Under the pieces are notes generated by a model. The model was not told where the DNA came from and did not search any database. It was given only the letters and a program-made list of their open reading frames with translations. Shown piece by piece: positions 47,471-51,593 of a DNA stretch of 64,000 nucleotides (position 1 is the stretch's first letter; each line of letters starts with the position of its first letter). The DNA lies in assembly GCF_030068455.1 (NCBI RefSeq), contig NZ_JAQOSQ010000001.1:186001-250000 (forward strand). Reading direction: 5' to 3'. The DNA comes from Roseofilum casamattae BLCC-M143 (GTDB lineage Bacteria; Cyanobacteriota; Cyanobacteriia; Cyanobacteriales; Desertifilaceae). The translations under genes were made by a program, and so were the position numbers.

Positions 47471-47638
47471 CAGTAGATTACTCCCATTTGAGAATACTCC
47501 GATCCTCGCAAAGCTGCGGAAGAGCACCGGTAACTTTACAAGGTCTTCATTAGATTACTCGGATTTTCCCGAGCGATCTTATGCAAGATCCGAGTAAATT
47601 GAAATATTTATTAACATATTTGCGCGATTTTAGTCATG

Positions 47639-47661
47639 TAATGTTAATTTTTGTAACATTA
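47639..47661. promoter_or_regulatory. Perfect 8-bp inverted repeat, candidate operator
   Basis: TAATGTTA (47639-47646) and TAACATTA (47654-47661) with a 7-base spacer, 58 bases upstream of the sigma-like gene and about 170 bases from the small divergent gene. The symmetry and half-site length suit a dimeric regulator. There is also a shorter related TTAACATA near 47610. No T-tract, so not a terminator. Confidence 0.4.
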
Positions 47662-47718
47662 CGATCGCTCTTGCATAAAAAACTAGCAAAAAAACCGAGA
47701 ACCCTATAGAGGTGCGCA

Positions 47719-48459
47719 ATGACACCTCAACTGCAACAATGGTCTCAGACAACAACCGGCATGGAAGAGTTAGAACCCCTAGAAGCAAGGTTGAAAGAAT
47801 TGGCGATCGCCGCTCAGCAGCAACCGCCGAAAAGCCTAAAACGGAAGCGAATGTTGGCCCGGCTAATCCGAGAGCTGATTGCTTGCGATCGTTTGATGAA
47901 ACCCAAAGGCGATCGACGGCGCAAATTCTACAACGAGATCTATGCTGAAGCCAAACAGCGACTTTTCTACCATCTATGTTCTCGCTTAGACGATTATGAC
48001 CCCAACAAAGGAGAAGTTTTACAATGGGCCAACTTTCTCTTGGAAAAACGCTTTTTTACTGAAGCTTCTCGCTGGGTATTTCAGAATATTCCCAGTACCG
48101 TACAGCGCCTGAGTTTAGATGAACTAGAAGTCCAGCTCAACACCAAAGAGCGCCCCCTAACCTTAGAAAGTATTTATCCCGAACAAACCCCCCTAGTGTC
48201 CGAACAGATTATCGAGTGGATTAAAACCGATCCGGAACGCATCTTTCAAACCGCCCACGTGCACAACCACCCAGCGGCCAATTTTCGTTTTCTAGCGCTG
48301 CGAGCGATCGAAGGGTATTCGTGGAAAGAAACAGCGAGCAAACTCGGCATTAAGTTAGTCACCCTCAACAGTTTCTACCGCCGATCTTTAGCCAAATTTG
48401 CCCCGAAAATTCAAGAATACCTACTGACCCAAGCCATTCCCACATCAAAACTCTTATGA
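47719..48459 (+). CDS. Divergent sigma-70-like factor
   Basis: 246 residues. A sigma-2-like helical part (about 60-120: LIRELIACDRLMKP, RLFYHLCSRLDDYDPNKG, WANFLLEKRFF) and a sigma-4-like HTH (about 195-230: RFLALRAIEGYSWKETASKLGI). The middle has none of the sigma-3 residues. Such ECF-like proteins next to DUF1822 genes recur in cyanobacteria as I recall, with no assigned regulon. The stop overlaps the next ATG (ATGA), so it is translationally coupled to the DUF1822 gene. No anti-sigma gene is adjacent. Confidence 0.75.
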   Translation: MTPQLQQWSQTTTGMEELEPLEARLKELAIAAQQQPPKSLKRKRMLARLIRELIACDRLMKPKGDRRRKFYNEIYAEAKQRLFYHLCSRLDDYDPNKGEVLQWANFLLEKRFFTEASRWVFQNIPSTVQRLSLDELEVQLNTKERPLTLESIYPEQTPLVSEQIIEWIKTDPERIFQTAHVHNHPAANFRFLALRAIEGYSWKETASKLGIKLVTLNSFYRRSLAKFAPKIQEYLLTQAIPTSKLL

Positions 48460-49385
48460 ACGTTCAAATTAACCCGACGATTGCAATTCCTTTAACCCTA
48501 AGCGCTCATCAACTGGCCCGGTGCCATGCCTGGAAGCAAATCGACCCCAAACGAGCCAAGCAAGTCTATCTGAATACCCTAGCGATTCACGCCGTGAAAG
48601 ACTACCTGGGATGGCTAGACATTGCCACCAACTGGCCCGAGTCGGAAAGTGCAAATCCCATTCAGCAATCCCTGTGCAATAGCGCCGATCTGGTTATTTC
48701 CGGTAAAGGCACCATCGAATGCCGACCCGTATTACCCGACGAAACCACCTGCACTATTCCCGAGGATACGTGGGGCGATCGCCTCGCTTATATTGCCGTC
48801 CGACTCAACCCCGAGTTAACCGAAGGGACTCTACTGGGTTACCTGAGCGAAGTAGAGCGTTACAAAACTCCCCTGAACCAACTGCACTCTCTCGACACCT
48901 TACTCGATCGACTCGACGAAGAAGCTGACGAGGCAATTCTGCTGACCCAATGGTTAAACCATGCCTTTGACGCCGGTTGGCAAACTCTTTCAGAACTTCT
49001 CGGCCCGGACGAACCTCAATTCGCCTTTAACTTTAGAAGTCCAGCGAGTCAGAGTAATCCTAGCAGTTCGGCGGCTACTATTAAACGAGGAAAACACTTG
49101 CAATTGCAACCCGATCGCGATCCGGTGGGACTGTTTGTCGGCATCGAACCGAGCGATCGCGAAGAATTCGATATCTCCGTCGAACTCTCTCCGACTGGAG
49201 CCGAGCGGCATCTGCCCAAAGAACTGCAACTCTCAATTCTCGACGATGAAGATCGGGTGGTGATGCACGCCTCCTCTCGAGGCACCAAATCCATCCAACT
49301 GGATTTTAGTGCGGAAGTTGGCGATCGCTTCTCGATTAAAGTAACTCTCGGCGAAATTGGCGTTACCGAATTCTTTGCGATTTAA
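48456..49385 (+). CDS. DUF1822 family protein
   Basis: 309 residues, soluble. Start TIAIPLTLSAHQLARCHAWK, then AIHAVKDYLGWLDIATNWPESES and WGDRLAYIAVRLNPELTEGTLLGYL; this is the cyanobacterial DUF1822 pattern. Residues 215-309 form a beta-rich second part (VGLFVGIEPSDREEFDISVELSPTGAERHLP, LGEIGVTEFFAI), like a C2- or carbohydrate-type sandwich. Role unknown. Four-base overlap with the sigma-like gene; the YaaW gene follows after 85 bases. Confidence 0.85.
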   Translation: MNVQINPTIAIPLTLSAHQLARCHAWKQIDPKRAKQVYLNTLAIHAVKDYLGWLDIATNWPESESANPIQQSLCNSADLVISGKGTIECRPVLPDETTCTIPEDTWGDRLAYIAVRLNPELTEGTLLGYLSEVERYKTPLNQLHSLDTLLDRLDEEADEAILLTQWLNHAFDAGWQTLSELLGPDEPQFAFNFRSPASQSNPSSSAATIKRGKHLQLQPDRDPVGLFVGIEPSDREEFDISVELSPTGAERHLPKELQLSILDDEDRVVMHASSRGTKSIQLDFSAEVGDRFSIKVTLGEIGVTEFFAI

Positions 49386-49470
49386 TGAGAGTATTGGAAG
49401 TCCGAGCGATCGCGAATATTGTACCCAGGAAACTCTAAAATGGGATCGGGATTCAATTGAGGTAACCAGT

Positions 49471-50313
49471 GTGAAAGAACTAAGAGCCGCCTTAGAACTA
49501 GCCACGGAAGAGGAATTGCAGCAATTAACTCATTTGCTCTTCCAACGCAAACTCAATCCCCTAGATTATGTCTATACTCCCGATCCTCTCGACGTCCAAA
49601 GTCAAGATCGAGACCTTTGGATCGAGGCGATCGCCAACCGCTTCCAATTTCTCGCTGCTGATGGCTTAACCGTTCTGCGCGGACAAACCCAGCAGATTAC
49701 CTATCGCCAAGTCCTCATCCAAGTCTGTCGCTATCTCAGACTTCCCTACCAAAACTCCCTCTCCACCACCGAACTGGAAGCTGAAATCTTCTTACATCTG
49801 ATTCGCCGCTCCTGGAAACGCTTACCAGCCTCCGAAAAACGAGGCTTAAAAGCCAGAATTAGTAAAGCGCTTGCCGAATCAAATTTTGCCCAACCCCTCC
49901 CTCTTTCCGCTCAAAAAGACCCGATCGGAGTATTTTTGAAAGGGGGATTTGCCTTTGCCGTAAACTCAGCCATCAAACCCTTGTTAATTGGCAAGTTTGC
50001 CCGTCAGTTTGCCCTACATTTCGCCAGCTACCAAGCCACCAAACAAGTCTTAGTACGCGGCTCAGTTGCGGCCACGGCTAAACTCCACTCGCAAGTTATC
50101 TTGCACCGATCTAGCGTAGGGATGGCTGCCAATGCCACGCGCTATGGGGTTGCTCGTACGGTCTTCTCCGTGTTAGGACCCGCTTTGTGGGCTTGGTTTT
50201 TTGCCGATCTGGGATGGCGAGCGATCGCCACCAACTATACTCGCATCATTCCCACCATCTTTGCTCTAGCTCAGATTCGCTTAACTCGTTCTGCCTGTTG
50301 GGAACCGGCTTAA
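49471..50313 (+). CDS. YaaW family protein
   Basis: 280 residues from GTG 49471, with GAGG nine bases upstream; the frame upstream to 49357 overlaps DUF1822 and is unlikely. KELRAALELATEEELQQLTHLLFQRKLNPLDYVYTP, then WIEAIANRFQFLAADGLTVLRGQT and LEAEIFLHLIRRSWKRLP are the YaaW signature. The C-terminal third is hydrophobic (GFAFAVNSAIKPLLIG, YGVARTVFSVLGPALWAWFFADLGWRAIA), suggesting membrane association. E. coli YaaW is uncharacterised. Its stop shares one base with the next ATG (TAATG). Confidence 0.83.
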   Translation: MKELRAALELATEEELQQLTHLLFQRKLNPLDYVYTPDPLDVQSQDRDLWIEAIANRFQFLAADGLTVLRGQTQQITYRQVLIQVCRYLRLPYQNSLSTTELEAEIFLHLIRRSWKRLPASEKRGLKARISKALAESNFAQPLPLSAQKDPIGVFLKGGFAFAVNSAIKPLLIGKFARQFALHFASYQATKQVLVRGSVAATAKLHSQVILHRSSVGMAANATRYGVARTVFSVLGPALWAWFFADLGWRAIATNYTRIIPTIFALAQIRLTRSACWEPA

Positions 50314-51593
50314 TGGCTCTGTCAACTTCATCTTCAGTCTATCCGCGACGGGCTTGGGAACTGCTGCAAGGCTGGTTAGCAATTTTTGTTTTCAGTCCCG
50401 TCATTGGGGCCGCTTTGGGTTTGGTCTTTTGGTACGACACCATTCGCCAACGCGGCGCGATCGCCTTACGTCGTCCCCTAACTCAGGCGATCGCTATTCT
50501 CAGTGTTGGCTTAGTCCTCACCTGCCTCCTGGGCGAATATCCGGGAGATGCCTTGCTCGGACTCTTTCACTTTCTCCCCTTTTTCCTGCACCTGGTGTTA
50601 CTCGGCGAAGTCGTGGAGACAGGCAGCCAACTGCGGCGGATGGCACAAATCGTAGTATTCTCATCCATCCCCGTTGCGGCTATGGGACTGGGGCAGATCT
50701 TTTGGGGATGGTCGGGCCCCGTACGCTGGTTGAGTATTGTCATTAACTGGGAACTATCTCCAGGAGGCAATCCTCTCGGTCGCATGTCCTCGGTCTTTGA
50801 TTATGCCAATGACTTAAGCTCCTATTTGCTCGTTGCTTTCGTCTTATCCCTGGGGCTGATGGGAGATAGACAACGGAAAAAGCGTTGGGTGTGGTTGCTG
50901 CTCGGATTAGCTATAGTTCTCGATGGCACGAGCCTTTTTCTCACCCATTCTCGCAATGGTTGGGCGATCGCGATTTTAGCCATTCTCATCTATGCTCTCT
51001 ATTGGGGATGGCATTGGCTCGTCGGCGCCGTCACCGCTGGAGTTGGACTAATTCTCTGGTCGGCCTTCGGCATCGATCCATCTCGACAATGGTTGCGCGT
51101 CATTGTTCCTCATTATATTTGGGCCCGGCTCACCGACGAAATGTTTCCCGATCGCCCCTTAGCCCAACTCCGCTCCACTCAATGGCAATTTGCCCTCGAC
51201 CTGATCCAGCAACGCCCCTTCACCGGTTGGGGACTGCGCAGTTTTTCCCCCCTTTACGAAACCCAGATGAACTACTGGATCGGCCATCCTCACAACCTCC
51301 CTCTCATGTTATTCTCCGAGGTCGGAATTTTAGTTGCCGTCTGGTTCTTGTGTTTAGTGACTTGGATTTTAGCCAAAGCCGTTTACTTCTGCTCTTTGCT
51401 GCGTCCTTCCACCGAGCAAGCGATCGTCTTTACCTACCTAGTGGCCTTTACATCCATCACTTTATTTCACCTGCTCGATATCACCTTATTCGATTCCCGA
51501 ATTAACTTCTTAGGCTGGTGGTTGTTGGGGTCTCTCCTGGGTTGGGTTTATCATCGCTCCCAAACGGCCCGAGAAAGGGCCAACAACCGTTGA
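50313..51593 (+). CDS. O-antigen ligase family membrane protein
   Basis: 426 residues from ATG 50313 in the TAATG junction with yaaW. About ten to twelve membrane segments, then a large exported loop with SPGGNPLGRMSSVFDYANDLSSYL and the Wzy_C-like region SLFLTHSRNGWAIAIL and PFTGWGLRSFSPLYETQMNYWIGHPHNLPLMLFSEVGI, where ligases and polymerases keep their key Arg and His. This family joins or polymerises undecaprenyl-linked glycans at the outer face of the membrane. It is the last gene of the sigma-like/DUF1822/YaaW run, tying that run to surface glycans. Confidence 0.85.
   Translation: MALSTSSSVYPRRAWELLQGWLAIFVFSPVIGAALGLVFWYDTIRQRGAIALRRPLTQAIAILSVGLVLTCLLGEYPGDALLGLFHFLPFFLHLVLLGEVVETGSQLRRMAQIVVFSSIPVAAMGLGQIFWGWSGPVRWLSIVINWELSPGGNPLGRMSSVFDYANDLSSYLLVAFVLSLGLMGDRQRKKRWVWLLLGLAIVLDGTSLFLTHSRNGWAIAILAILIYALYWGWHWLVGAVTAGVGLILWSAFGIDPSRQWLRVIVPHYIWARLTDEMFPDRPLAQLRSTQWQFALDLIQQRPFTGWGLRSFSPLYETQMNYWIGHPHNLPLMLFSEVGILVAVWFLCLVTWILAKAVYFCSLLRPSTEQAIVFTYLVAFTSITLFHLLDITLFDSRINFLGWWLLGSLLGWVYHRSQTARERANNR

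Follow-up and report, generated by a model that had tools for sequence, protein, structure and literature searches.

Extracytoplasmic function (ECF) sigma factors and DUF1822 proteins have been reported as companions of EACC2-caspase genes (Kaur et al., 2021, PMC8195603). In the excerpts of that account considered here, the ECF-DUF1822-EACC2 system is described from gene neighbourhoods with unspecified transcription targets, is read as an apoptosis or immunity system, and DUF1822 is called a TPR protein. A further source (PMC9679502), in the portion seen, merely lists DUF1822 genes among mutated genes. Here we describe a sigma-DUF1822 gene pair at positions 47719–49385 of a 64,000-nucleotide stretch of the Roseofilum casamattae BLCC-M143 genome (the window; contig NZ_JAQOSQ010000001.1, positions 186,001 to 250,000 of the forward strand). 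Our hypothesis, to which we assign a probability of roughly 0.6 on comparative sequence evidence, is that the sigma factor is autoregulated, is controlled with the DUF1822 protein, and runs a cell-surface and exoprotein regulon.

So far as the published excerpts go (PMC8195603), the locus has its ECF sigma factor and DUF1822 pair in common with the EACC2-caspase systems, the two genes adjoining each other at 47719–49385. It differs in that the copy has no adjoining EACC2-type gene (no EACC2-caspase gene was found in the neighbourhood at the locus), in that the predicted DUF1822 fold is alpha+beta with an Ig-like sandwich where the published label is TPR, and in that we propose a promoter and a set of targets, neither being given in those excerpts. 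By this comparison, the ECF-DUF1822 half of the published system appears to be present at 47719–49385 as an orphan copy. Elsewhere, the window genome (G000; G001–G005 are the same-genus genomes compared, giving a Roseofilum group of six) contains a stand-alone EACC2-type homologue (G000:C15) and a complete second cassette (G000:C6). An earlier note on this DNA had known of no description of such a system; for the sigma-DUF1822 part this does not hold, as the pair is already present in PMC8195603. For the orphan arrangement, the promoter class and the target set, no description was found in the open-licence literature, mostly judged from titles.

From 274 DUF1822 loci found, the best 80, named cyanobacterial loci, were taken into the neighbourhood survey. 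A sigma gene lay upstream at 76 of them, with two loci cut by contig ends and two without it, and an EACC2-type CHAT gene lay downstream at 63 (two cut by contig ends, 15 without). The gap between the sigma and DUF1822 genes was at most 60 bases in 66 of the 76 pairs, measured from mechanically assigned starts. Distance matrices of the two proteins, compared for 47 pairs, correlated at 0.58, against a maximum of 0.21 in 500 permutations. On these comparisons, sigma-DUF1822 is a widespread cyanobacterial unit. The earlier suggestion that DUF1822 could be the partner of the sigma factor was borne out as far as DUF1822 is the usual neighbour, and it is this neighbourhood that argues for a partner role. 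Among the EACC2-type proteins scanned as examples, CHAT is combined with TPR (L032) or with CHASE2 (L089); a DUF928 protein (L059) was a further neighbour.

The first gene (47719–48459, + strand) is a divergent ECF-type sigma factor, as judged from its predicted fold and from weak profile matches. Its match to Sigma70_r4_2 (7e-5, 22.8 bits) lies just under the cut-off of 25.7, and that to TIGR02937 reaches 12.4 bits against a cut-off of 42.9; as the curated sigma family cut-offs are not passed, the protein is a divergent relative, and ECF-type does not denote formal membership. A profile built from 21 sigma-like proteins gave a collinear ECF sigma-2 and sigma-4 match that is weak (best E 0.036); among its matches up to E 1, eight of 16 were ECF sigma factors and the rest unrelated. 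In the AlphaFold model, with a predicted local distance difference test (pLDDT) score of 86.7, sigma-2 spans approximately residues 18–120 and sigma-4 approximately residues 166–238, and all 50 rows listed by VIA-align were sigma-factor entries. Both domains are thus found in one short protein, by the weak collinear profile match and the predicted fold, and the earlier description of a sigma-70-like factor with sigma-2-like and sigma-4-like parts is upheld by profile match, model and structural alignment. The start of the gene is ambiguous, either 47719 or an ATG at 47779; a start at 47719 would leave a leader of only about 10 bases.

The second gene (48456–49385, + strand) overlaps the sigma gene by stop and start codon. 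Its product belongs to DUF1822 (PF08852), with a match of 4e-62 and 210.8 bits against a gathering score of 25. The model (pLDDT 89.4) consists of an alpha+beta N-terminal part followed by an Ig-like beta-sandwich (residues ~207–309), and is made up mainly of strands. The best Z score in the fold search was a middling 7.7, with an aligned span of residues 207–309 only, so that the N-terminal half was barely covered. A DUF1822 profile gave a single, chance-level match among solved structures. TPR repeats were not found: no Pfam TPR profile matched up to E 1, and the model does not resemble a TPR protein. Pairs of the SigE-RseA type, an ECF sigma factor and its anti-sigma factor, are alike in the sigma-2/sigma-4 architecture, in a partner gene in the same operon and in possible autoregulation, whereas the partner here is a soluble DUF1822 protein without a listed anti-sigma match.

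Some DUF1822 proteins of other loci are fused to further domains. In L065 (G001:C88) the C-terminal part of DUF1822 is joined to a weak LuxR-type helix-turn-helix and to TRADD-N, next to an EACC2-type gene, and in L069 (G024:C1) it is joined to an NB-ARC ATPase, with an adjacent EACC2-type gene judged by eye. As read from their domain composition, both fusions directly link DUF1822 to TRADD-N/EACC2 systems. A longer DUF1822 protein of 475 amino acids with a HEAT-like insert (L064, G004:C41) follows a 481-amino-acid protein with a sub-threshold match to sigma-70 region 4; this cassette may be an enlarged form of the sigma-DUF1822 pair.

Upstream of the sigma gene, the fixed-spacing motif TGCRTAAAA-N16-GAGA-N5-ATAG occurs at 47672–47709 with zero mismatches, and nowhere else in the window. 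It comprises a predicted -35-like element TGCATAAAA (47672–47680, + strand), a predicted -10-like element GAGAAC 16 bp after it (47697–47702, +), and a conserved ATAGAGG (47706–47712, +) as the predicted initiation region. Usual ECF promoters carry GGAAC and GTC, and the elements here are unlike these. With up to three mismatches, TGCRTAAAA-N16-GAGAAC was found in 31 of 87 deduplicated sigma upstream regions, compared to a mean of 0.69 and a maximum of 4 in 200 shuffles, and none of the other spacings from 6 to 27 exceeded nine of the 87. In an alignment of 54 upstream regions anchored on the motif, ATAGAGG lies at +34 and positions -27 to -12 form an AT-rich block. The motif is perfect in the window and in the sigma copies of four of the five same-genus genomes, and the G004 copy has a single mismatch; the proteins themselves are about 60% identical.

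The SigJ J-Box of Nostoc punctiforme (GGGaAtacT, an extended -10; PMC6495340) is, as proposed for the present motif, an alternative-sigma promoter governing many cyanobacterial genes. It was rejected as an identity for the present motif, from which it differs, in the published excerpts, both in sequence and in its extended -10, with no agreement at the -10. An unnamed second motif in the same source (clusters 10/11) may be the same as ours. A text search for GCATAAAA in the open-licence literature returned no cyanobacterial title among the ten best-ranked of 608 matches, and no description linking PEP-CTERM to a promoter motif was found there.

For the genome-wide scan, a relaxed core, GCATAAAA-N25-ATAG, was matched exactly with the -10 left open, and the reversed pattern served as control. 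The six Roseofilum-group genomes contained 87 sites (5, 13, 8, 22, 8, and 31 in G000–G005) against three controls, and the open -10 began with GA in 85 of them. Four genomes of another family held 24 sites against seven controls, one of the four being without any. Only five of 82 fetched sites fell inside open reading frames of at least 100 amino acids, compared to 1275 of 1640 random positions. Among 35 sites with differing downstream DNA, similarity extended from about -35 to +42, with background beyond; as it ends there, a dispersed repeat was rejected as an explanation of the sites.

The genes behind these sites point to the cell surface and to exported proteins. The tally comprises 68 downstream proteins (E up to 0.01) and includes orthologues of sister genomes as well as paralogues, so its entries are not independent. 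PEP-CTERM was found in 17 of the 68 by NCBIfam and in 14 by Pfam; the Pfam matches also included DUF4114 (11), Peptidase_S8 (subtilase, 9), RTX (5), M50 (5), CAP (4), CHAT (4), glycosyltransferase (3), and trypsin (2). PEP-like C-termini were present in 19 of 47 downstream proteins and in four of 156 mechanically chosen background open reading frames. In the other family the targets were similar, as judged by eye and alignment identity, with DUF4114-type and PEP-CTERM proteins and the same glycosyltransferase and M50 types. The surface role suggested by the earlier note gains indirect support through the promoter's other sites, and none through the ligase gene. Large proteins behind the motif in two families (L248, L251, L261, L264, L267, and L270) share an N-terminal FILEPILTPSG, which may be a sorting signal.

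In the mechanism that we propose, 47719–49385 would encode a sigma factor of ECF type together with a soluble DUF1822 protein as its partner, and the sigma factor would recognise TGCRTAAAA-N16-GAGA-N5-ATAG. Activation of its own gene and of a set of cell-surface and exoprotein genes would follow from this recognition. The DUF1822 protein may hold or escort the sigma factor and relay a signal from an EACC2-CHAT protein, which in G001–G005 is encoded elsewhere, under the same motif. More tentatively, and with the odds somewhat against it, the sigma-DUF1822 family as a whole could, in filamentous cyanobacteria, run the PEP-CTERM and secreted-protease surface proteome via a so far undescribed class of promoters whose -10 differs between paralogues, with caspase-like EACC2-CHAT proteins as the switch, possibly in trans. 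If this were true, a supposed cell-death or immunity system would be a surface-remodelling switch. A fixed promoter and a set of candidate targets would make the output of the caspase-linked sigma factor directly testable and would, in mat-forming cyanobacteria, connect the PEP-CTERM surface proteome with a regulator.

The assignment of the motif to this sigma factor has to be weighed against an outside reader, i.e., another alternative sigma factor or regulator that owns the motif and counts the sigma-DUF1822 genes merely among its targets. Such a reader would fit the AT-rich block upstream of the core, which by eye resembles an HLR1/RpaB site in some genera, so that an outside regulator may act there; it would also fit the report, in the part of PMC6495340 seen, that five PEP-CTERM genes of Nostoc punctiforme depend on SigJ without a J-Box, and hence indirectly. 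The distribution of sites speaks against it. Across 147 genomes of the order, the 119 with a DUF1822 match contained 199 sites against 15 controls, whereas in the 28 without such a match the excess is gone (2 against 2). In addition, the -10 variants track the sigma paralogue present in the six Roseofilum-group genomes. Sites with a GACTA-type -10 number 2, 5, and 7 in G001, G003, and G005, where the second sigma-DUF1822 pair has this -10 in its own promoter, and none were found in G000, where the promoter of the second pair differs, in G002, where one DUF1822 copy is split into two matches, or in G004, where no second short pair was seen. As GACTA-type sites occur only in genomes whose paralogue has that promoter, this comparison of six genomes suggests that each sigma factor reads its own -10 variant. 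Together with the dissimilarity of the motif to the J-Box, these results make an outside reader unlikely, though it deserves serious consideration.

Another rival holds that the pair is a decaying, functionless remnant of an EACC2 conflict system for cell death or immunity. It would account for the missing EACC2-type neighbour and agrees with the apoptosis/immunity reading in the excerpts of PMC8195603, and yet neither reading frame is broken and the motif has been kept in the same-genus copies despite the divergence of the proteins. As this combination suggests selection on the pair, we consider a remnant highly improbable.

Several observations weigh against an autoregulated sigma factor with a surface regulon. 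More than half of the sigma upstream regions (56 of 87) fail the motif test, and enrichment in the window genome itself is modest, with five sites against two controls (8 against 1 and 6 against 0 in other scans). Of the 199 sites in the order, the window's genus accounts for 72 and family f28 for 39, and kinship was not corrected for; when Roseofilum and f28 are left out, 106 genomes retain 88 sites against 14 controls. Some genomes are rich in DUF1822 and poor in sites (G011, 14 matches and no site; G089, 10 and none; G096, 15 and one). As G004 also has the L064 cassette, its sites are not assignable to one sigma factor with certainty. The stand-alone EACC2-type gene of the window genome (G000:C15:28501–30309) has no motif in the flank retrieved, while its homologues in G001–G005 carry the motif upstream, and the EACC2 label itself is taken from the published description and from CHAT matches in the examples scanned, not from an EACC2 profile. 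Structurally, neither the sigma model nor the DUF1822 model gave a Foldseek match at E 0.001 or better, and the best single-domain VIA-align match of the sigma model (SigC sigma-2, Z 9.7, root-mean-square deviation 2.2, 86 residues) lies in a range (Z below about 13) that the aligner itself cautions is common among helical folds.

The sigma and DUF1822 genes are followed by two further open reading frames on the + strand. The third (49471–50313) has a GTG start, its longest version beginning at 49357, and encodes a YaaW-like protein whose sole match is PRK10236, which we take to be the YaaW family; with 1e-7 and 31.8 bits against a curated cut-off of 395, the family cut-off is not passed. The fourth (50313–51593) encodes an O-antigen-ligase-like membrane protein with a Wzy_C match of 2e-15 in the Pfam profile search. 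The four rightward frames of the earlier note were confirmed (47719–48459, 48456–49385, 49471–50313, and 50313–51593), as were the junctions that it gave (ATGA at 48456–48459, the 85-base gap, which spans 49386–49470, and TAATG at 50311–50315).

That note had read the four genes as one operon-like system and proposed a surface-glycan stress cassette, to which we now give hardly any credence. The tight spacing would suit a cassette, and no terminator-like site is listed between the DUF1822 and YaaW-like genes. Against it, the survey of DUF1822 with YaaW and Wzy/WaaL neighbours, which the note had set beforehand as a test, found neither a YaaW-like nor a Wzy homologue at any of the 80 named loci within the stretch surveyed, and the four-gene cassette is rejected on this basis. 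The YaaW-like and Wzy genes were each present in 36 of 39 genomes and, by their coordinates, adjacent in 28 of the 36, and across the order the pair (49471–51593 in the window) is mostly present in single copy; only in the window genome do the two genes stand beside sigma-DUF1822, with no such case among the 35 others. In G001–G005 the pair has another location, where an ABC-transporter ATPase gene follows it, immediately in four genomes and with one gene between in G005, and a homologue of this ATPase gene (80%) sits on another contig in the window genome. Since the pair stands elsewhere in relatives and the ABC-transporter homologue is on another contig here, the junction at 49386–49470 is probably a rearrangement. 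The four genes are, by these neighbourhoods, two unrelated conserved pairs. The YaaW-like and Wzy genes are probably chance neighbours outside the sigma-DUF1822 system, though transcription from the sigma promoter may run on into them in the window genome. Here, as in three of the five same-genus genomes, the YaaW-like/Wzy pair is preceded by a DUF1499 gene.

The perfect inverted repeat that the earlier note had placed upstream of the sigma gene, GTAATGTTA-N7-TAACATTAC (47638–47662, no strand assigned), is indeed perfect, with arms of 9 bp and not 8. It was not seen in the sigma upstream regions of nine related loci. The note had suggested a search for the same site in other promoters; the genome contains a single perfect copy, and with up to three mismatches there is one match in the window and four places in the genome, compared to five for the reversed control. 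The palindrome was therefore rejected as a shared operator, its weak matches being no commoner than the control. In the window, 16 perfect repeats with arms of at least 9 and spacers of 3–20 were counted, this one included, compared to 1–11 in five shuffles.

The palindrome overlaps the conserved upstream AT-rich block (47642–47659, + strand), which is aligned to a TGTAAA-N4-TRTWACAA element about 10–27 bp before the promoter core. The HLR1 consensus consists of two direct KTTACAWW repeats two bases apart. By eye and without a score, the likeness of the block to HLR1/RpaB is good in the upstream regions of some genera and imperfect in the window. Compared with the high-light box examples in the excerpts of PMC6331805, the block of several genera fits two TTACA-type repeats by eye, whereas in the Roseofilum consensus, as in the window, it is imperfect or palindromic, and in the consensus of the second family it is weakly seen. 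Speculatively, and by eye only, an activator such as RpaB may act at the block. In a few upstream regions, inspection by eye also showed a TTATGCA/TGCATAA inverted repeat around the core, with changes that match, its right arm being explained by the fixed-spacing motif.

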